IMG/VR virus record: IMGVR_UViG_3300023109_000086
Coordinates: 1 to 29,852 of that record
Length of the DNA: 29,852 nucleotides
DNA from: a virus
Strand: one strand, 5' to 3'
In this document: piece by piece, positions 1 to 29,852 of the stretch
Layout of the letters: each line of letters begins with the position of its first letter
How positions within the stretch are numbered: the stretch's first letter is position 1
The notes under the pieces: model-generated
Database searches by the model: none
The model's input: only the letters and a program-made list of their open reading frames with translations
What the model was told of the DNA's origin: nothing
Translations under genes and position numbers: made by a program

Positions 1-150
1 CCATCAAAAACACTTGAAACTTCTCCACAGAATCAGGTAGCTAACTCCCTATCCCCTTCATCGAATTTAAGTCGTCACTTATCAAGTGTTTGTGGTGGAG
101 TCGCTGGGTACTGCCCCCAGGTCCAGTATGTGTCCACGCCGCTTCAACGT
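1..150 (-). ncRNA. ssrA: Probable permuted (two-piece type) tmRNA, 3' part cut by window edge
   Basis: tmRNA rescues stalled ribosomes and tags the unfinished peptide. Read on the minus strand, 120-93 forms a tRNA-like 3' end: T-stem CTGGG (120-116), seven-base loop GGCAGTA (115-109), CCCAG (108-104), acceptor strand CGACTCC (103-97) and encoded ACCA (96-93). As I remember them, acceptor pieces of alphaproteobacterial two-piece tmRNAs end this way, with a T-loop unlike the usual TTCRA. About 44 nt of intervening sequence follows. The coding-piece 5' end may be GGAGTTA (48-42), which pairs 6 of 7 with the acceptor strand, or GGGGATA (56-50), which would keep a G3-U70 wobble. GATTC at 35-31 recalls the D-like arm. 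The pseudoknot and tag ORF would lie beyond position 1. The 5' end near 150 is inferred from the late-promoter box. The acceptor end is convincing; the coding-piece start is uncertain. Confidence 0.55.
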
Positions 151-157
151 TTACATC

Positions 158-364
158 TTATTTATAATTCATTTTTTCCCTGTTTGCCCAAGCTTCAGAA
201 AATCCATCTTCATTAACACAATTTTCGTGATTACCCCAGATACGTTTCATATAGCTATGGTATATGCCTTCTACATCTTTGTCGGACCATGTCTGGGGGA
301 TTAATGAACCCTTTACTATCCAGTAAAAACGGTTGGCTTCTTTACGCACAAATGGGCTGCACAT
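158..364 (-). CDS. Small hypothetical protein
   Basis: A 68-residue protein I do not recognise. It is rich in aromatic residues (YWIVKG, QTWSDKD, RIWGNHEN) and charged residues, with no signal peptide or membrane segment. The ATG at 364 is preceded by a strong Shine-Dalgarno sequence (AAAGGAGA, about 7 nt upstream), which supports real translation. It is the last gene of the regA/mazG run, 21 nt after the MazG-like gene. Its stop codon overlaps a late-promoter box. Confidence 0.6.
   Translation of the reverse strand: MCSPFVRKEANRFYWIVKGSLIPQTWSDKDVEGIYHSYMKRIWGNHENCVNEDGFSEAWANREKMNYK
159..166 (-). promoter_or_regulatory. T4-type late promoter box before the tmRNA-like RNA
   Basis: The minus strand reads TATAAATA, an exact match to the T4 late-promoter element recognised by gp55-programmed RNA polymerase. 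It overlaps the stop codon of the 68-codon gene. A start about 8-10 nt downstream would begin the transcript close to 150, just ahead of the tRNA-like acceptor piece, so the RNA is probably made late. Confidence 0.6.
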
Positions 365-385: not shown

Positions 386-742
386 TTATCTTACAAACTG
401 AGCTAGTTCTGGTGCTTTCCAGCCTTCTGGTTTAAGCACTTTACCGTCTTCACGTTTGCGCACTTTACCTGTTTCTGGATCAATCTTAGCGAAGTTTGTA
501 TCCATTACTTCTTTCCAAGCTGCTTCTCCGTCCCAACCTGCAGCCCGAATAGCACCCATAGTAACAACCAGAATGTCAACGAGTGCATCAAGTTGTTCTA
601 CTTTGTCGTTGTCTTGGATAGCTTCTTCTAGCTCTTCTGTTTCTTCACGGATTAGATCGAGATACATTTTGTAGTTTGCTTCGCTTGGTTCTTGATCACA
701 AGCAGTTTGAAACGTATCAATATCCTTAAATGGGTTTGTCAA
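386..742 (-). CDS. mazG: MazG-like nucleoside triphosphate pyrophosphohydrolase
   Basis: A 118-residue all-alpha NTP pyrophosphohydrolase of the MazG / phosphoribosyl-ATP pyrophosphatase type. These enzymes hydrolyse NTPs or dNTPs to the monophosphate and pyrophosphate, and in phages are thought to clean or rebalance nucleotide pools. The metal-binding signature is visible as EETEE at residues 33-37, followed by E49, D52 and D56 in EQLDALVDI. The start codon is TTG, overlapping the regA stop as TTGA. A Shine-Dalgarno GGAAGGAAG lies about 5 nt upstream, and the next in-frame Met is about 25 codons in, so TTG is the best start. The coupling places it with the replication genes. The substrate cannot be told from sequence. 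Confidence 0.8.
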   Translation of the reverse strand: MTNPFKDIDTFQTACDQEPSEANYKMYLDLIREETEELEEAIQDNDKVEQLDALVDILVVTMGAIRAAGWDGEAAWKEVMDTNFAKIDPETGKVRKREDGKVLKPEGWKAPELAQFVR

Positions 743-1131
743 TCTTTCTTCCTTCCAATATTATATTTCGCAGTCAACGTCCAGTTAGCCTTTTCTTTAT
801 AGGGCAGAACCTTAATCTGACTCAAAGGTGTCAGAGGTTCACCAGACTTATTTTCATCAACTAATTCAACAAGACCCCACTCAGCTAACAAATTAGCGAT
901 GGTGTTACGGCGTCCTTTATCTTCGTCCCCAAAGTTGTTGGGTTTGCCATCAAGCATAAAGAGTTCTTTAAAATGCACGATGTAGTATTTACCCTGCTTG
1001 TGCAGAATATGGCAAGACTGATAGATTGTCTTGTCTTTACGAGAAGCAACGCCAATACGTGTCAGCGTTTCTCTAATTTTAAGGAAATCGTCTTCGTTTG
1101 TGAGGCGCACCTCTACCATTGAGTCAAGCAT
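739..1131 (-). CDS. regA: RegA translational repressor of early mRNAs
   Basis: RegA binds the translation-initiation regions of phage early mRNAs, including its own, and represses them. The protein matches T4 RegA throughout: DDFLKIRETLTRIG, YQSCHILHKQGKYYIVHFKE and a C-terminal K-x-x-W-x-L-x-x-K-Y-x-IG pattern. The frame is open to a GTG at 1140. The ATG at 1131 has the best Shine-Dalgarno (AAGGTGG, 5 nt away), while the ATG at 1119 aligns with the T4 start; I chose 1131. It overlaps the end of gene 62 and abuts mazG, as in the T4 order 44-62-regA. Confidence 0.93.
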   Translation of the reverse strand: MLDSMVEVRLTNEDDFLKIRETLTRIGVASRKDKTIYQSCHILHKQGKYYIVHFKELFMLDGKPNNFGDEDKGRRNTIANLLAEWGLVELVDENKSGEPLTPLSQIKVLPYKEKANWTLTAKYNIGRKKD

Positions 1132-1516
1132 TTCGTCCACCTTTTTCCATTCTGTTTCTTATTGTTTTTATTTGGTCGTCGGTGAGGACAGAAAGTGCTT
1201 GCCTTGCTTTAACATCGTTGTAACCATAATACAGCTTAATCACTTCCACGTCACCAGTTTTTTCTTTTTTAGCCCACTTCGCAAAGCGTTTTTTGGGTCT
1301 AACTGTATTTAGTAGAAAGTGGAACTGAAGCTTTTTGTCAATGTCATGCCGAGTGTTCATCTCATTAGCAAGCCAAATGGTATCAGGAAAGTTTGACAAC
1401 GAACGGTTGGTTAGAAAAGGATCATAACCCTTCTCTGCCAACACGTCGTTATCCGTGCCAGTCATTATGTCTTTTTTAGAGACATTGATCTCATTAACAT
1501 AATCAAACGGATTCAT
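1124..1516 (-). CDS. 62: Clamp-loader small subunit gp62
   Basis: The small, non-ATPase subunit of the T4-type clamp loader, which forms a complex with four gp44 subunits and loads the gp45 clamp at primer junctions. At 130 residues it is shorter than T4 gp62 (187). The N-terminal PFDYVNEIN and the middle segment with YDPFLTNRSLSNFPDTIWLANEMN fit the family as I remember it. ATG overlaps the gene 44 stop as ATGA, so translation is probably coupled, which would help set subunit ratios. The assignment rests on these motifs and on its place between 44 and regA. Confidence 0.9.
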   Translation of the reverse strand: MNPFDYVNEINVSKKDIMTGTDNDVLAEKGYDPFLTNRSLSNFPDTIWLANEMNTRHDIDKKLQFHFLLNTVRPKKRFAKWAKKEKTGDVEVIKLYYGYNDVKARQALSVLTDDQIKTIRNRMEKGGRNA

Positions 1517-8226: not shown

Positions 8227-8796
8227 TCACATTTTTTCGAGTTTTTTAAAAATATTTTTTTGCTCTGACTTTGGCAGTTGCTTAAACATTTCCATGATAC
8301 GATCTTGAGTGCAGATCGGACCATCACATGTTGGGAGACCGCCATACTTTGCAACGTATTCTTGGTGCAACCTACTCTCTACCCCATGTGCTGGAATCTT
8401 AATTCCCTCGCCATAGCCCATTGGGTAGTATGCAACATAAAGGTTTTCTTTGTTTTCTTCACCATACTTTATCCTGAATAGCGTTCCGTTTGCGTATGGG
8501 TTTTTTAGGTGAGCTGCACGTGTAATCGTGCCCATAAAATCTGCGGTGCGGCTGCGGATGCCTCTATATTTACTGGAACCAGCAGTTCCGATATAAACTA
8601 CTCGTTCGTCTAGGTGATCAACCTCTTCCTCAGCAATCGTGTGTTCGGTATCGTATGCATACAGGTAGCAGCCGCCCATGTGATACTTCTCTTGATTCTT
8701 CCTATTAAAGCCAACAACCTCATCACTGAGCTTGCAAACACCATCATCGTCCCAGAGGCGAATCCACTTCGCCTGATAGTCATTGTAGAGCAACAT
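8227..8796 (-). CDS. GIY-YIG-like nuclease domain protein
   Basis: A 189-residue protein that I read as a divergent GIY-YIG domain. GCYLY (42-46) stands for GIY. VVYIG (66-70) is a clear YIG strand, followed by arginines at 78 and 81 in the place of the catalytic Arg. A Glu at 140 in HGVESRLHQEYVAKYG sits where the metal-binding Glu is expected. GIY-YIG proteins cut DNA in repair, restriction or homing. It stands alone between two promoters, which fits a moron-like or homing-type gene, but I see no intron nearby. The insert between the two halves is longer than usual, so the call is moderate. Confidence 0.5.
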   Translation of the reverse strand: MLLYNDYQAKWIRLWDDDGVCKLSDEVVGFNRKNQEKYHMGGCYLYAYDTEHTIAEEEVDHLDERVVYIGTAGSSKYRGIRSRTADFMGTITRAAHLKNPYANGTLFRIKYGEENKENLYVAYYPMGYGEGIKIPAHGVESRLHQEYVAKYGGLPTCDGPICTQDRIMEMFKQLPKSEQKNIFKKLEKM

Positions 8797-11084: not shown

Positions 11085-11346
11085 TCATTTTCCTTATGCT
11101 CCAAGACATATCAGAAACTTGTCGCCAGCTCAAGGTATCCCCTGCCTGCCAACCCAAGCTTTCCATAAAATCATCAGGGAGCTCTAGCATGAGTTCCCCA
11201 TCTTCATCTTCTGTAACAGTAATATACCTTGAATTTGCGTCGCTGTCAACTATTTTATTTAAGTTTTCTTGAACAAAACTAGAGAACCCAGAATAAATAT
11301 CCTTGCCTTCTTGCTCGCCAGTATCTTCATCACTAAAATCACTCAT
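11074..11346 (-). CDS. Small AbrB/MazE-like protein
   Basis: A 90-residue protein with an acidic N-terminus and a segment (about 42-75) reading like a SpoVT/AbrB swapped-hairpin domain: ITVTEDEDGELMLELPDDF, then LGWQAGDTLSW. The pattern of strand, LP, short helix, LGxxxGD and strand is typical of AbrB and MazE DNA-binding or antitoxin domains. No toxin partner is adjacent. It overlaps its neighbours by 4 and 11 nt, so it is expressed with the deformylase-like protein and the dioxygenase. A regulatory or DNA-binding role is inferred from the motif only. Confidence 0.55.
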   Translation of the reverse strand: MSDFSDEDTGEQEGKDIYSGFSSFVQENLNKIVDSDANSRYITVTEDEDGELMLELPDDFMESLGWQAGDTLSWRQVSDMSWSIRKMNDG

Positions 11347-11867
11347 AGTAGTACTGATTCCTTTCTCGCTTTATCAAGCCGTTTTTTCTGTTTGATTGCT
11401 CTCTCTAGGTAATACCTGTTTGCCTTCTTAGTATATAGAAGACCTTGAAGAAGATCATACTGGTGCTGGAAAATACGGGCTGTGATCCCATCAAACTTAA
11501 CAACATCCGTTACCATCTCTGCTGTTGTATAACGAACACGGATACTGGTTGGGCGTTTGATCTTGATGAACAATCCAGGGAAGCATGGATTCATCTCCTC
11601 CTCAACCGCAGTTTCCTCACCATAAGATGTGATGATGGGATTGAACGCTGCAAAGGCTGAGGAAGTGTCTGCTGGGTTGCCAACTGTCATAACCTGCAGA
11701 GGCAAGCCAAATTGGTTGGCTGATAACCCCATAATGCGTAGCTTTGACATTCGATCAGTCATCTGCAGGGAAAGTTCTACTGGGTCTATTTCTGGGTTGG
11801 AGAAGTCAAACTTCTCTGCTGCTGTTCTCAAAATAGGGTCTGAACCCTTTACAAGTTTCATATTCAT
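11343..11867 (-). CDS. Peptide deformylase-like protein with degenerate catalytic motifs
   Basis: A 174-residue relative of peptide deformylase, which removes the formyl group from nascent N-termini. Motif I is kept as GLSANQFG (47-54). Motif II, normally EGCLS before FPG, reads EMNPC before FPG (91-98), so the metal-binding Cys aligns with Asn93. Motif III, normally QHExDHLxG, reads QHQYDLLQG (134-142): the catalytic Glu is Gln136 and the second His is Leu139. Only His135 of the metal site remains. It is probably inactive as a classical deformylase and may be a binding protein. ATG overlaps the gene 46 stop (ATGA), with AGGA upstream. Confidence 0.75.
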   Translation of the reverse strand: MNMKLVKGSDPILRTAAEKFDFSNPEIDPVELSLQMTDRMSKLRIMGLSANQFGLPLQVMTVGNPADTSSAFAAFNPIITSYGEETAVEEEMNPCFPGLFIKIKRPTSIRVRYTTAEMVTDVVKFDGITARIFQHQYDLLQGLLYTKKANRYYLERAIKQKKRLDKARKESVLL

Positions 11868-14649: not shown

Positions 14650-15204
14650 TCACTCTTCTTCAATAATGCGTTTCTTCTTCACCTTCTTACGTTTATTTTG
14701 TTCAAAGTTTTCTACAAAGTTTGATACATAATCTTCGTTCCAGTCATTGACTTTAGAATTAGAAGTATAGTCTGTACCAGCATCATGAGCCTGAGAGTCA
14801 GACGTCTCGCCAAAGAGTGTCGCTTGTTCAGTGGCTTTCATTTTTACATACAAATATTTCTTCTCTTTCTGGATACGACGAAGAAAGGCATAGTAAATAA
14901 TTTGTGTGAAGTATGCGAAAGGGTTTTTACTCTTCTCAGGATTGAAGTTGTCAATATACTGTAGACAGTTTTCAACCCCATCCATAATCATATCTTCACG
15001 GAAAGAGTAGTTGATAAAGTTTGGTTTATAGGATAAGTGAGTGGCAATTTTAATAATGCAATCAGCAACATAAAATGGAACATTTGGTCGCTCTTTACCA
15101 GCTTGCGCTGCTTCGGCAATCATTTCTCGATATTCGATCATTGCTTGTAGAAATGCTTTATTGTCCACATAATATGGTCTTTTCTTTTTATCTTTAGCAG
15201 CCAT
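14650..15204 (-). CDS. 55: Late-transcription sigma factor gp55
   Basis: A 184-residue divergent sigma factor that directs host RNA polymerase to TATAAATA late promoters, several of which are visible in this window. PYYVDNKAFLQAM near the N-terminus, the central FREDMIMDGVENCLQYIDNFNPEKSKNPFAYFTQIIYYAFLRRIQKEKK stretch (read in parts) correspond to sigma regions 2.1-2.4. T4 gp55 (185 residues) ends in a hydrophobic/acidic tail that binds the sliding clamp. Here the C-terminus is highly charged and ends RIIEEE, so that tail appears to be absent. It shares one base with the upstream gene (TAATG). Confidence 0.94.
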   Translation of the reverse strand: MAAKDKKKRPYYVDNKAFLQAMIEYREMIAEAAQAGKERPNVPFYVADCIIKIATHLSYKPNFINYSFREDMIMDGVENCLQYIDNFNPEKSKNPFAYFTQIIYYAFLRRIQKEKKYLYVKMKATEQATLFGETSDSQAHDAGTDYTSNSKVNDWNEDYVSNFVENFEQNKRKKVKKKRIIEEE

Positions 15205-17501: not shown

Positions 17502-17530
17502 AGTATAGCGTATTATTTTATTTTAGTCAA
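17502..17530 (-). promoter_or_regulatory. Sigma70-type promoter for the uvsY operon
   Basis: TTGACT (17530-17525), a 17-nt spacer and TATACT (17507-17502) lie 32 nt before the uvsY start. The -35 box overlaps the end of the upstream virion gene. It would drive uvsY through the dioxygenase/glycosyltransferase pair, as no other clear promoter interrupts that run. Confidence 0.72.
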
Positions 17531-18040
17531 CTCATATTTTCTATACGCAAATGTGGCATCTCCAACCATAGGCACTATGTTGGTTTCTTCAATATTGAAT
17601 TCTGGGATATTGAGGCTTACTGGATACAGGTCTACAAACTTCACTTCCATGTTGGGTTTGTATGATGCAGTAGTAACAATAAGTGTCCCGTCACTATAAA
17701 CATCACCCTGACGTTGAACACCTTGAGATATATCTGCACGCTGTTGGAAGTTGTCTGGATAACCAAGCCCGATCATCCAGTTATAAACTTCTGAGAAATT
17801 TTCTAGATCTTCATCAATACGGAATCTAACAGTCAATAACCCAAATGACAGTTTATCTCCAGGAACAGGCAGTTTGATAAAAGTGTTATCTACTGTGTCA
17901 ATCTGACCAAGTGTCATGTCGGGGATATTAGCTGATGTACAGAAATAACTTACATGCGGAAGTTTGTTGATCACAAACTTAAACCCTACAGGAGAAAGAA
18001 AAGACTTGTTTTCGATATCGGTTTGATTAAGGGTTGCCAT
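17513..18040 (-). CDS. Tail-tube-fold virion protein (gp19-like, in the place of gene 3)
   Basis: A 175-residue structural protein with the tube-protein pattern of T4-type phages: GFKFVINKLPHVSYFC, then NIPDMTLGQ, KLPVPGDKLSFG, and the signature RIDEDLENFSEVYNWMIGLGYP in the middle. The same DED-x-N-x-W-x-GLGxP signature marks gp19, gp48 and gp54 relatives. As I recall the marine T4-like order, gene 3 (tail completion, 176 residues in T4) sits here between 23 and uvsY, so a tail-terminator role is possible. The ATG at 18040 has a strong GGAGGT. It is the only virion gene downstream of the gene 23 terminator. Confidence 0.7.
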   Translation of the reverse strand: MATLNQTDIENKSFLSPVGFKFVINKLPHVSYFCTSANIPDMTLGQIDTVDNTFIKLPVPGDKLSFGLLTVRFRIDEDLENFSEVYNWMIGLGYPDNFQQRADISQGVQRQGDVYSDGTLIVTTASYKPNMEVKFVDLYPVSLNIPEFNIEETNIVPMVGDATFAYRKYELTKIK

Positions 18041-22004: not shown

Positions 22005-22012
22005 TATTTATA
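22005..22012 (-). promoter_or_regulatory. T4-type late promoter for the gene 67 group
   Basis: Exact TATAAATA on the minus strand, just after the portal stop codon and 19 nt before the gp67-like start. It would drive 67, the gp68-position gene, the 86-residue gene and 21. Confidence 0.82.
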
Positions 22013-23596: not shown

Positions 23597-24145
23597 TTAA
23601 ATGCCGCCAGCATTACCTGTGACACCACCAGAAACCTGCCAGTAATCATACTGGAAAGTTACCTGATACTCTTGGACACCTTCTTGATCCCAAGCGAGAT
23701 CAATTTGTGAAACTTCGGAGGGATAAAGCCCAACAAAGTCATAAACACGAAGGATTTCTCCAGTTTTGCTAAACTGAGTAACCTGAGCAACTGATTTATA
23801 CAAAGACGGAGCAGAGCCGCCAGCTGTAGAAATGTTGCCTTGAAACGAGTTAATTGAGTTTGACCATTGCTCCATAGCATTACGGATAGCAAAGTCCTCA
23901 TCGTTTATGATTGTTGGTGCCCACTCCGCATAAGTTCTATTTCCTGCAAGTTTGATCGTACGACCAAAGTATGGAACCTCGACAGTACCAAGTGTTGCAG
24001 CTGGGATAGCTGCTGCCTTGCAGAGAAATGGTACAGTAACATCTGACACCCCATTAATTGGGTTGGTGATCTGTACTTGGAAGAGGGCACTACGTGCGCC
24101 CCCATCCTTCAATGCACCAGCAAATTGGTTTACATTAAACGCCAT
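23597..24145 (-). CDS. 19: Tail tube protein gp19
   Basis: A 182-residue tube protein (T4: 163). ARSALFQVQITNP, FLCKAAAIPAATLGTVEVPYFGR and the C-terminal EYQVTFQYDYWQV show the beta-barrel pattern of gp19. It polymerises on the baseplate to form the inner tail tube. It lies between sheath (18) and portal (20), as in T4. The ATG at 24145 has AGGAGAAAC upstream. A one-mismatch late promoter lies 20 nt before it. Confidence 0.93.
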   Translation of the reverse strand: MAFNVNQFAGALKDGGARSALFQVQITNPINGVSDVTVPFLCKAAAIPAATLGTVEVPYFGRTIKLAGNRTYAEWAPTIINDEDFAIRNAMEQWSNSINSFQGNISTAGGSAPSLYKSVAQVTQFSKTGEILRVYDFVGLYPSEVSQIDLAWDQEGVQEYQVTFQYDYWQVSGGVTGNAGGI

Positions 24146-28198: not shown

Positions 28199-29852
28199 TT
28201 ATCCTGGAGTTATGGGTAACGCAACTGAAGTGTTGCCCTGCGTTACATTAATAGTTCCATAAACTTGGTTGTTAGCGATAGACCAGTAATAGAAAGAACC
28301 ATTTTCTTTCGGTGCAAAGATAATTGTTTCATTATCAACCGCACCATTATTAATAATAATTTCAGAATTTGTTATAACTGTATTTGAGTCAAGTCCAAAA
28401 ACAGGATTTATTAGATCAGCAATAGATTGATTATTTGCTGAAAGGAAGTTTGTGTTGGAAGAAATAAATACATTTTCTCCTGACACGTTCTTAACATAAA
28501 GTATGGAGCTACCAGAAAGAATTTCTATTGTGGCAAAATCCCCATCAATATTATAACGAGTATTCGCATTCTCGGGTTGAGTGTTTCTGTCATAACCAAA
28601 CACGCTGATTAGATTGTTTGCGGAAGAAACTTCAACTTCATATGCTTCTGCACCAGATGGTCTATTTTGATTATTATACTTCACTTCCCCACTTAATGAA
28701 CCGACACCACTAACAGAAACAATACCACCTTCGAGTTCCCTATAGGAGAAGTTGTATGAAACATCAAAATATCTATCAAGATAGTCATTCACATTATTGC
28801 TCGATAAGTTGAGTCTTACTGTGGAAGATCCTGTATTCGGTGTTAGTGTCCCTGAATTCGGAACGTTGAACAAATTATCGGGAAGTGAAATGCGTGATAG
28901 CATAATATAAGAAACTTCTTCGTCTCCCCTCACATTAACAGAAGAAACAATTTGTGTAGTTTCATTGGAGAAGACCTCATCGAAACTTGTCATTTGTAAA
29001 CTTGGTATCAAGGAAGTCTGTACGTTGACAGAAACGTTTGCCTGATTGAGCGAGTTATCAAAGTTTTTAATATAAAACTTAGCTTCCACCTCACCTGATG
29101 TAGTTCGCAGATCATTATAGATGTTGAGGGAAATTTCTGATGCACTATTCGCAATTACAAACTCATTATTACTAGATGCTGTATATGCAGCTGCGTTGGA
29201 GAAAGTTCCGTTAGCAACTGGGAAATTGTCTGAGACAAGTTTGTATATAGAACCCTCTTCGACGTTATCCGAATCAATAAAGAAGTTGAGTGTGTCGCTA
29301 GTGTAGCTCTGAATAGAAGTATTCGGAACAACAGACAGGTAGAACTTACGATCAAACGAAGTGTCGAGAATTGTTACAGTAGTATTTGCTTCACCGTTAT
29401 CTAAGGTGAGCGTCATATATTCTGTTGCTTCTGTTAGGAAGTCTTTATTGATAGAAATCACAACCTGTGCCTTTTGATCAAGCACAACAAAGTAACCCGT
29501 TCTTGAGCGAACAATATCATCTGACGAAATGCCAGTTATGGTCCAAGGAACCCTTGTTCTGTCTGGAACATTAAGAGCCTCTAGAGTAAATACAACATCA
29601 TCAGCCGCTTCGCCAGTAACATTATCACCTTCGTCGGCTGTGACTGGAGTTGCAGAAAGGGAGTAGAATGGTGTTTCGCCGAAGAATGGTGGTATTTCTT
29701 CGGGTGCTGCATCAACACCAATTTCTTCTCTTCTTGTTATGATATCAAAGTAATTTTCAATGTCGAATGCATACCCATAATTTGAGTTGGCGTCGATTTG
29801 AGAAATAGGAACACTCAAAGAAGAAAGCGCTGTTGGGTCGCCGTTTGCCTTC
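28199..29852 (-). CDS. Virion structural protein with Calx-beta-like segment, 5' end beyond window
   Basis: At least 550 residues, open to the right edge. A TTG at 29818 could be taken as a start, but upstream codons continue without a stop (reading KANGDPTALSS), so the gene is probably cut by the window. A segment with ATPVTADEGD, then FTLEALNVPDRTRVPWTITG, DFLTEATEYMTLTL and VTILDTS has the pattern of Calx-beta or Ig-like beta-sandwich repeats found in phage surface proteins. The rest is Asn/Ser/Thr-rich and strand-rich. Its place just before the terminase genes suggests a neck, fibre or decoration component. Exact role unknown. Confidence 0.65.
   Translation of the reverse strand, partial: KANGDPTALSSLSVPISQIDANSNYGYAFDIENYFDIITRREEIGVDAAPEEIPPFFGETPFYSLSATPVTADEGDNVTGEAADDVVFTLEALNVPDRTRVPWTITGISSDDIVRSRTGYFVVLDQKAQVVISINKDFLTEATEYMTLTLDNGEANTTVTILDTSFDRKFYLSVVPNTSIQSYTSDTLNFFIDSDNVEEGSIYKLVSDNFPVANGTFSNAAAYTASSNNEFVIANSASEISLNIYNDLRTTSGEVEAKFYIKNFDNSLNQANVSVNVQTSLIPSLQMTSFDEVFSNETTQIVSSVNVRGDEEVSYIMLSRISLPDNLFNVPNSGTLTPNTGSSTVRLNLSSNNVNDYLDRYFDVSYNFSYRELEGGIVSVSGVGSLSGEVKYNNQNRPSGAEAYEVEVSSANNLISVFGYDRNTQPENANTRYNIDGDFATIEILSGSSILYVKNVSGENVFISSNTNFLSANNQSIADLINPVFGLDSNTVITNSEIIINNGAVDNETIIFAPKENGSFYYWSIANNQVYGTINVTQGNTSVALPITPG

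Follow-up and report, generated by a model that had tools for sequence, protein, structure and literature searches.

The analysed stretch of 29,852 nucleotides (hereafter termed the window) is the complete IMG/VR record IMGVR_UViG_3300023109_000086 and represents a fragment of a T4-like myovirus, in which all genes, including gp17, gp18, gp19, gp20, gp21, gp22, gp23, UvsY, a helicase, gp55, gp47/46, CobS, gp45, gp44, gp62, RegA and MazG, are carried on the minus strand. The gp45-gp44-gp62-RegA cluster spans positions 3294-739, and RegA and the features downstream of it, up to the contig end, are collected in Table 1 together with the late sigma factor gene. In protein comparisons with isolates, gp23 is closest to its counterparts in the phage Melnitz, a Stenotrophomonas phage and cyanophages (62-66%), and TerL to those of Sinorhizobium phages (59%). 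Another viral record, L123, shares the order gp44-gp62-RegA-MazG with the window at a protein identity of 79-85%, and L086 matches the region of the small ORF at 67.5% over 142-364. In addition, the window harbors two gp19-like tail tube genes (17513-18040 and 23597-24145, PHROG 45), a phage-encoded peptide deformylase (11343-11867, PHROG 2890) and two large ORFs without any PHROG match (8227-8796 and 28199-29818).

Table 1. Features of the window discussed in the text, with positions, strand and basis of each assignment
Feature	Position	Strand	Basis or remark
First two bases (GG) of the tmRNA coding piece	1..2	-	Alignment with L123, L114, L008, L063 and others at the border between ..GAT and GGGGNCG
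Intervening sequence (IVS) between the two tmRNA pieces, 90 nt	3..92	-	Borders by alignment with complete relatives
P1 closing helix, 3' arm	8..17	-	Pairs with 91-82
Conserved structured RNA core, 61 nt, model R1	19..79	-	cmsearch 85.8 bits, the window itself being part of the model
P3, UUC/GAA	65-63 with 23-21	-	
P4, AGGG/CCU..U	50-47 with 37-32	-	Loop AGUUAGCUA at 46-38
P2 hairpin, AGU-GACG-ACU	79-70	-	
P1 closing helix, 5' arm	82..91	-	Pairs with 17-8
tmRNA acceptor piece (5' extension GTAAAC.., T-arm, acceptor 3' strand, encoded ACCA)	93..154	-	RF01849 and RF04321
Acceptor-stem 3' strand CGACUCC and ACCA	93..103	-	Sequence
T-arm CUGGG-GGCAGUA-CCCAG	104..120	-	Direct reading; fits alpha_tmRNA consensus loop GGCgGUA
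Small ORF, 68 aa	158..364	-	Stop codon overlaps the late promoter box
T4-type late promoter octamer TATAAATA	159..166	-	74 nt before the end of CCA
MazG-like nucleotide pyrophosphohydrolase gene, upstream of the tmRNA	386..742	-	PHROG 671, E 4e-35
RegA translational repressor gene	739..1140	-	PHROG 242, E 1e-59
Late sigma factor gp55 homologue	14650..15204	-	PHROG 234, E 5e-58

The initial annotation had proposed a phage-encoded permuted tmRNA of the alphaproteobacterial type from a fold on the minus strand at 120-93, and the letters there read exactly as it described them, namely CTGGG-GGCAGTA-CCCAG-CGACTCC-ACCA, which comprises a 5-bp T-stem, a 7-nt loop, the acceptor 3' strand and ACCA. tmRNAs are charged with alanine through a G-U pair and act in trans-translation together with host SmpB; in the acceptor 3' strand of the window, a U occupies the position that pairs with G3, and the G-U alanine identity is expected from the 5' strand GGGG of the relatives (GGGGTCG). 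The 5' extension GTAAAC.. of the acceptor piece has its partner, GTTTAC, in the coding piece of relatives. Moreover, the acceptor piece is 85-95% identical to those of the complete phage tmRNAs L123, L109 and L114.

No tmRNA was called in the window by ARAGORN or by the Rfam scan at gathering thresholds, because the gene runs off the contig. A permissive covariance search of the contig end returned the alphaproteobacterial model alpha_tmRNA (RF01849) at 35.5 bits (E 8e-9), against a gathering threshold of 50 bits, as well as tmRNA_permuted (RF04321) at 29.1 bits (E 3e-4), with both matches flagged as cut at the 3' side. As a truncation control, the complete tmRNA of L123 scored 113.8 bits with alpha_tmRNA, and shortening it to the equivalent base lowered this to 37.4 bits (28.8 bits with tmRNA_permuted); the low score of the window is therefore what truncation predicts. 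Minimum free energy folding of the whole end was uninformative (z -0.42). The acceptor-piece match is not a matter of chance, and the covariance match, the truncation control, the syntenic L123 and the T4-like gene set together uphold the annotated gene type, which supports the assignment of the contig end as the first half of a permuted, alphaproteobacterial-type two-piece tmRNA gene.

Alignment with complete phage tmRNAs places the border of the coding piece between ..TTTGAT and GGGGNCG, and in the window only the final GG at 2-1 belongs to this piece. The remaining part of the gene thus lies beyond the contig end. The same applies to the tag peptide, as had been anticipated, while a coding-piece start about 44 nt after CCA, which had also been suggested, proved wrong: the sequence in question, GGGGATAGGG, is internal to the 90-nt IVS and is followed by no GGAUCGAC region. 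In L123, a complete permuted tmRNA comes after gp44-gp62-RegA-MazG, and its tag, ANDNFAPSDYALAA, is of the Ala-Ala type. The missing part of the gene in the window would be expected to consist of a coding piece GGGGTCG..AGGATCGAC, a resume codon and a tag of the ANDN..ALAA type. A search with the exact start of the IVS found no sibling contig extending past the window end. Among whole IMG/VR contigs with the acceptor motif, 7/69 have it at most 130 nt from an end, where 2.8 were expected, and the conserved tmRNA gene may be a preferred break point in assembly, as in the window. Unusually long tags were predicted by ARAGORN in the viral tmRNAs L033, L037, L043, L047 and L090, for instance ANDNALSNVTFVDFSAPVTAVNEDFALAA.

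The type of the tmRNA had further been taken as a pointer to the host group. A marine alphaproteobacterium is a plausible host. The inference is nevertheless soft, since Melnitz, an OM43 phage with a gammaproteobacterial host, carries a tmRNA of the alphaproteobacterial type (PMC9004378), and the host is thus not settled by the tmRNA type. A 170-nt query found matches in 79/390 Rhodobacterales, which were confined to the acceptor T-arm. The exact acceptor sequence GGACCYGGGGGCRGTACCCRGCGACTCCACCA occurs in many Rhodobacterales, and also in Sphingomonas and Xanthobacteraceae; as a means of host identification it points to Rhodobacterales but is not decisive, the sequence being shared with the latter two. 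The bin of one Rhodobacteraceae bacterium, Water_Bin34 (L291 / G053), contains eight distinct permuted tmRNAs on different contigs, which are probably phage contigs binned along with it.

The tmRNA gene is immediately preceded by a T4-type late promoter box. The octamer TATAAATA occurs six times in the window (chance expectation 1.17), always on the coding (minus) strand and always outside the annotated genes; four copies sit 45-56 nt ahead of gp18, gp20, gp22 and gp23, and the copy at 22012 falls in the gap after gp20. Across distinct viral permuted-tmRNA upstreams, the octamer is located 60-85 nt before the end of CCA in 72/108, compared with 2.2% of same-strand background windows of 90 nt, whereas even TATAAAT was encountered in only 1/110 of the bacterial tmRNA upstreams. 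Of these 72 viral tmRNAs with a late box, 55 possess TTGAC a further 16-18 nt upstream, and most phage tmRNAs thus bear a composite host-sigma/late promoter. Examples of the composite TTGACA-17-TATAAATA, which keeps a constant spacing to the tmRNA, are L063, L109, L046 and L325. Unlike most relatives, the window has no TTGACA 16-18 nt upstream of the box at the tmRNA and has the late element only.

Since the box directly precedes the gene in the same orientation, and a gp55 homologue that would recognise such boxes is encoded in this contig, transcription of the tmRNA is expected to take place mainly late in infection, by which the timing voiced in the initial annotation gains support; the retagging of host or phage proteins envisaged there is a putative role. 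An early promoter and a glutamine riboswitch have been predicted for the tmRNA of Melnitz (PMC9004378), and the late box bears on the early expression postulated there.

The IVS that separates the two tmRNA pieces is closed by a helix, P1, which is formed by 9/9 pairs in the window. In its fixed register, 698/720 cells were paired over 80 unique viral IVSs, compared with 529+-7.7 when partners were shuffled. Against tmRNAs with acceptor pieces 85-95% identical to that of the window, the IVS interior is 3-44% identical, and in comparison with L109 and L114 the acceptor is 90-95% and the IVS 29-53% identical. The opposite pattern is found with L329/L333, where the IVS is 94-96% and the acceptor piece 61% identical; L326 and L330 likewise have an identical IVS between diverged flanks, in a mosaic pattern. 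These opposite patterns of identity indicate that the spacer is passed on or exchanged separately from the two halves of the tmRNA. The viral IVS has a median length of 79 nt, versus 24 nt in hosts (113 genomes). Most phage tmRNAs have an IVS unlike that of the window, or a short hairpin.

Inside P1, the IVS of the window holds a conserved structured RNA (hereafter the insert). P2 is a hairpin of three base pairs whose GACG loop never varies and in which the pairs AGU/ACU, GGU/ACC, GAG/CUC, CGG/CCG and CAG/CUG were observed, while P3 and P4 form one arm with conserved internal loops (GAAGNNGRTA and GATNCNRTGGA) and a UAGCUA-containing loop, the whole domain being closed by P1. Over nine distinct insert sequences, on which the structure was itself drawn by eye, 180/180 cells are paired and 14/20 pairs change on both sides, with the sequences falling into two groups, so that the independent compensatory events are few. 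In alignment A6 (eight sequences, with N as spacer letters in three rows and L364 left out), 80/80 cells are paired and the covariation score is 0.586 against 0.197 for shuffled alignments, the signal being lost when the partners are slid; the MAFFT alignments A2-A5 were set aside on account of a misplaced P2 hairpin. The same three helices were predicted by RNAalifold unaided, and the covariance model R1, built without the L364 type, scored this held-out type at 63.5 bits. The helices thus appear to be maintained by compensatory changes, the firmest case being P2, for which three pair types are found at one position.

A profile of the window's IVS and its close relatives gave a weak match in L178 (E 0.002), from a different T4-like phage; it coincides exactly with the 95 nt that separate two tRNA-Lys genes there. 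Further scans disclosed copies of the insert in the IVS of other tmRNAs (the L364 type and L374) and between tRNA-Asp or tRNA-Lys and tRNA-Lys genes (L366/367/371, L370 and L372/373); among the latter, L367, L371, L372 and L373 carry their tRNA-flanked copies on contigs that, like the window, encode the gp45-gp44-gp62-RegA cluster. A divergent copy is likely present in L108, again in the IVS (E 0.006 on the short set), and a match of L335 to one pattern was dismissed as chance, as it falls in a coding gene. Apart from the window, the insert is placed between tRNA-like units, that is, tRNA or tmRNA, in 20/20 contigs, and this position therefore suggests a small RNA that is released by tRNA-type processing.

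The search of Rfam 15 with the insert matched no riboswitch, ribozyme or other family and returned only the tmRNA models and chance-level matches, while blastn of both insert forms against 50,697 phage records gave chance-level matches only. The insert was found neither by DNA search nor by model R1 in 385 alphaproteobacterial genomes, and R1, which in the same search recovered 13/13 records known to carry the insert, had no match in Melnitz or in T4 (whole genome and tRNA cluster). No description of conserved RNAs in phage tmRNA spacers was found in the literature searched. Phage two-piece tmRNAs as such have been published from the Methylophilales phage Melnitz and from further marine phages, with 50/53 being of marine or aquatic origin (PMC9004378), and what is new here is the late promoter before the tmRNA and the conserved structured RNA in the IVS.

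Built on the acceptor piece, the promoter box, the IVS borders and the structure and distribution of the insert, all of which are shown at the sequence level, the overall proposal is considered highly probable: a T4-like phage would transcribe a permuted tmRNA from a late promoter, the IVS would be cut out, and the insert would most likely constitute a small trans-acting RNA. Two-piece tmRNA is established to arise from a precursor that tRNA-processing enzymes cleave, after which its pieces pair with each other (PMC11915505). In the present phage, processing, charging and tagging would follow the known biology of two-piece tmRNAs. The precursor would be ordered as acceptor piece, 90-nt IVS and coding piece, and the arms of the IVS would pair as P1, so that the spacer forms a closed hairpin domain next to the acceptor stem. 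The tRNA-processing enzymes of the host would then excise the IVS, with RNase P acting between GAT and GGGG and 3' maturation taking place at CCA. The two tmRNA pieces would stay together through base pairing, receive alanine and serve in trans-translation with host SmpB, and the excised IVS would carry the three-way junction P1/P2/P3-P4 with its GACG and UAGCUA loops. As the structured RNA is also present between tRNA genes of related phages, it is most likely set free as a stable small RNA of the phage that works in trans.

The IVS RNA might instead act only in cis, as a riboswitch- or thermosensor-like regulator or as a processing signal for the flanking tRNA-like units, to which the location of every copy between such units would correspond. 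A glutamine riboswitch has been reported with the tmRNA of Melnitz (PMC9004378), the internal loops GAAGNNGRTA and GATNCNRTGGA resemble a binding pocket, and, by our own reading, CACTT could pair alternatively with AAGTG. This alternative is nevertheless rather unlikely: no Rfam riboswitch family matches the insert, including the glutamine riboswitch, whose covariance model gave no match to it; one core serves unrelated flanks (tmRNA, Lys-Lys and Asp-Lys); and the insert is dispensable for maturation, because in the majority of phage tmRNAs its place is taken by a different IVS or by a short hairpin. The maturation of other phage tmRNAs without the insert argues equally against a small self-cleaving ribozyme that frees the ends of tRNA and tmRNA. 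Such an activity would suit an element that sits between RNAs requiring separation and that has a compact three-way junction with conserved internal loops, but no Rfam ribozyme family was matched, no hammerhead core could be recognized by eye, and we regard a ribozyme as very improbable.

The mosaic pattern, exemplified by L326 and L330 with the same IVS between diverged flanks, and the occupation of the same slot by unrelated IVSs or mini-ORFs in other phages would also be accounted for by a parasitic or freely exchanged, recombination-prone spacer, which spreads between tRNA-like ends and has no function for the phage. Neutral hitch-hiking does not predict four helices kept by compensatory changes together with fixed loops, which renders this explanation improbable, if less so than a ribozyme. 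The least credible of the alternatives concerns the gene itself, in which the contig end would be a degenerate, acceptor-only relic of a tmRNA or a CDS-less decoy like that of phage DS6A. The tag lies outside the record and CDS-less tmRNAs do exist (PMC11915505), but the 3' arm of the IVS, the border between ..GAT and GG and the promoter are all intact, and the syntenic L123 has a full coding piece and tag. With the released, trans-acting RNA as the preferred reading, a broader one may be advanced tentatively, in which the insert belongs to an undescribed family of small structured RNAs that moves among tRNA and tmRNA genes, is freed by host tRNA processing and acts in trans, and in which phage IVSs generally provide a cargo slot for small RNAs and mini-proteins.

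Several known systems can be compared with the locus. Melnitz resembles it in having an alphaproteobacterial-type permuted tmRNA in a T4-like phage, with 44 bases of the acceptor region 91% identical, and in the sequence TTGACA-17-TATAAATA ahead of the tmRNA, of which the window keeps the late box only; it differs in its genome neighbourhood and in its IVS of 142 nt, which contains a 41-codon frame rather than the RNA of the window. The ssrA genes of alphaproteobacterial hosts (e.g. Rhodobacterales and Caulobacter) share the GGCRGUA T-loop and CGACUCC-ACCA in many Rhodobacterales genomes, and are set apart by the shorter IVS and the scarcity of TATAAAT upstream given above. RNAs C and D of the T4 tRNA cluster (NC_000866) are likewise small stable RNAs among phage tRNA genes, with unknown function, but show no match to the insert in sequence or structure; T4 rnaC (L375:1109-1247) ends in a T-arm-like CCGGGTTCGAATCCCGG, as if derived from a tRNA-like RNA. 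ROOL and GOLLD are structured phage RNAs of unknown function that are often found near tRNA islands (PMC12286853); they extend over hundreds of nucleotides, in contrast with the insert core of 61 nt, and their Rfam families gave no match here. The nearest precedent for cargo in an IVS is a tRNA-Ala gene inside the intervening sequence of one permuted tmRNA (PMC11915505).

Previously, two-piece tmRNAs of phages were known, their spacer was treated as waste and the timing of their expression was guessed to be early. If the proposal is true, the spacer would serve as a slot for phage small RNAs or mini-proteins by way of the host tRNA-processing enzymes, the tmRNA would be placed under the late programme of the phage, linking ribosome rescue by an RNA with the late phase of infection, and a directly testable family of small RNAs would be at hand.

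Other contents of phage IVSs were noticed as well. In many long phage tmRNA IVSs, an ATG opens a frame of 27-77 codons, and this is frequently accompanied by a Shine-Dalgarno-like site (examples being L325, L007, L034, L073, L084, L029, L080, L064 and L091/L105/L116), and in 18/30 of the IVSs of at least 100 nt the frame is longer than in 95% of shuffles; the frames of L034 and L007 encode related peptides (MDEVILWE..). A possible second RNA type is seen in the IVS of L039, L087 and L103, consisting of a GTAG-loop-CTGC/CTAC hairpin, the loop of which is complementary to a downstream stretch (ATGCAC/GTGCAT, ATACAC/GTGTAT and CTGTAA/TTACAG) and would, by eye, form a covarying pseudoknot. Yet another IVS is common to L046 and L096.
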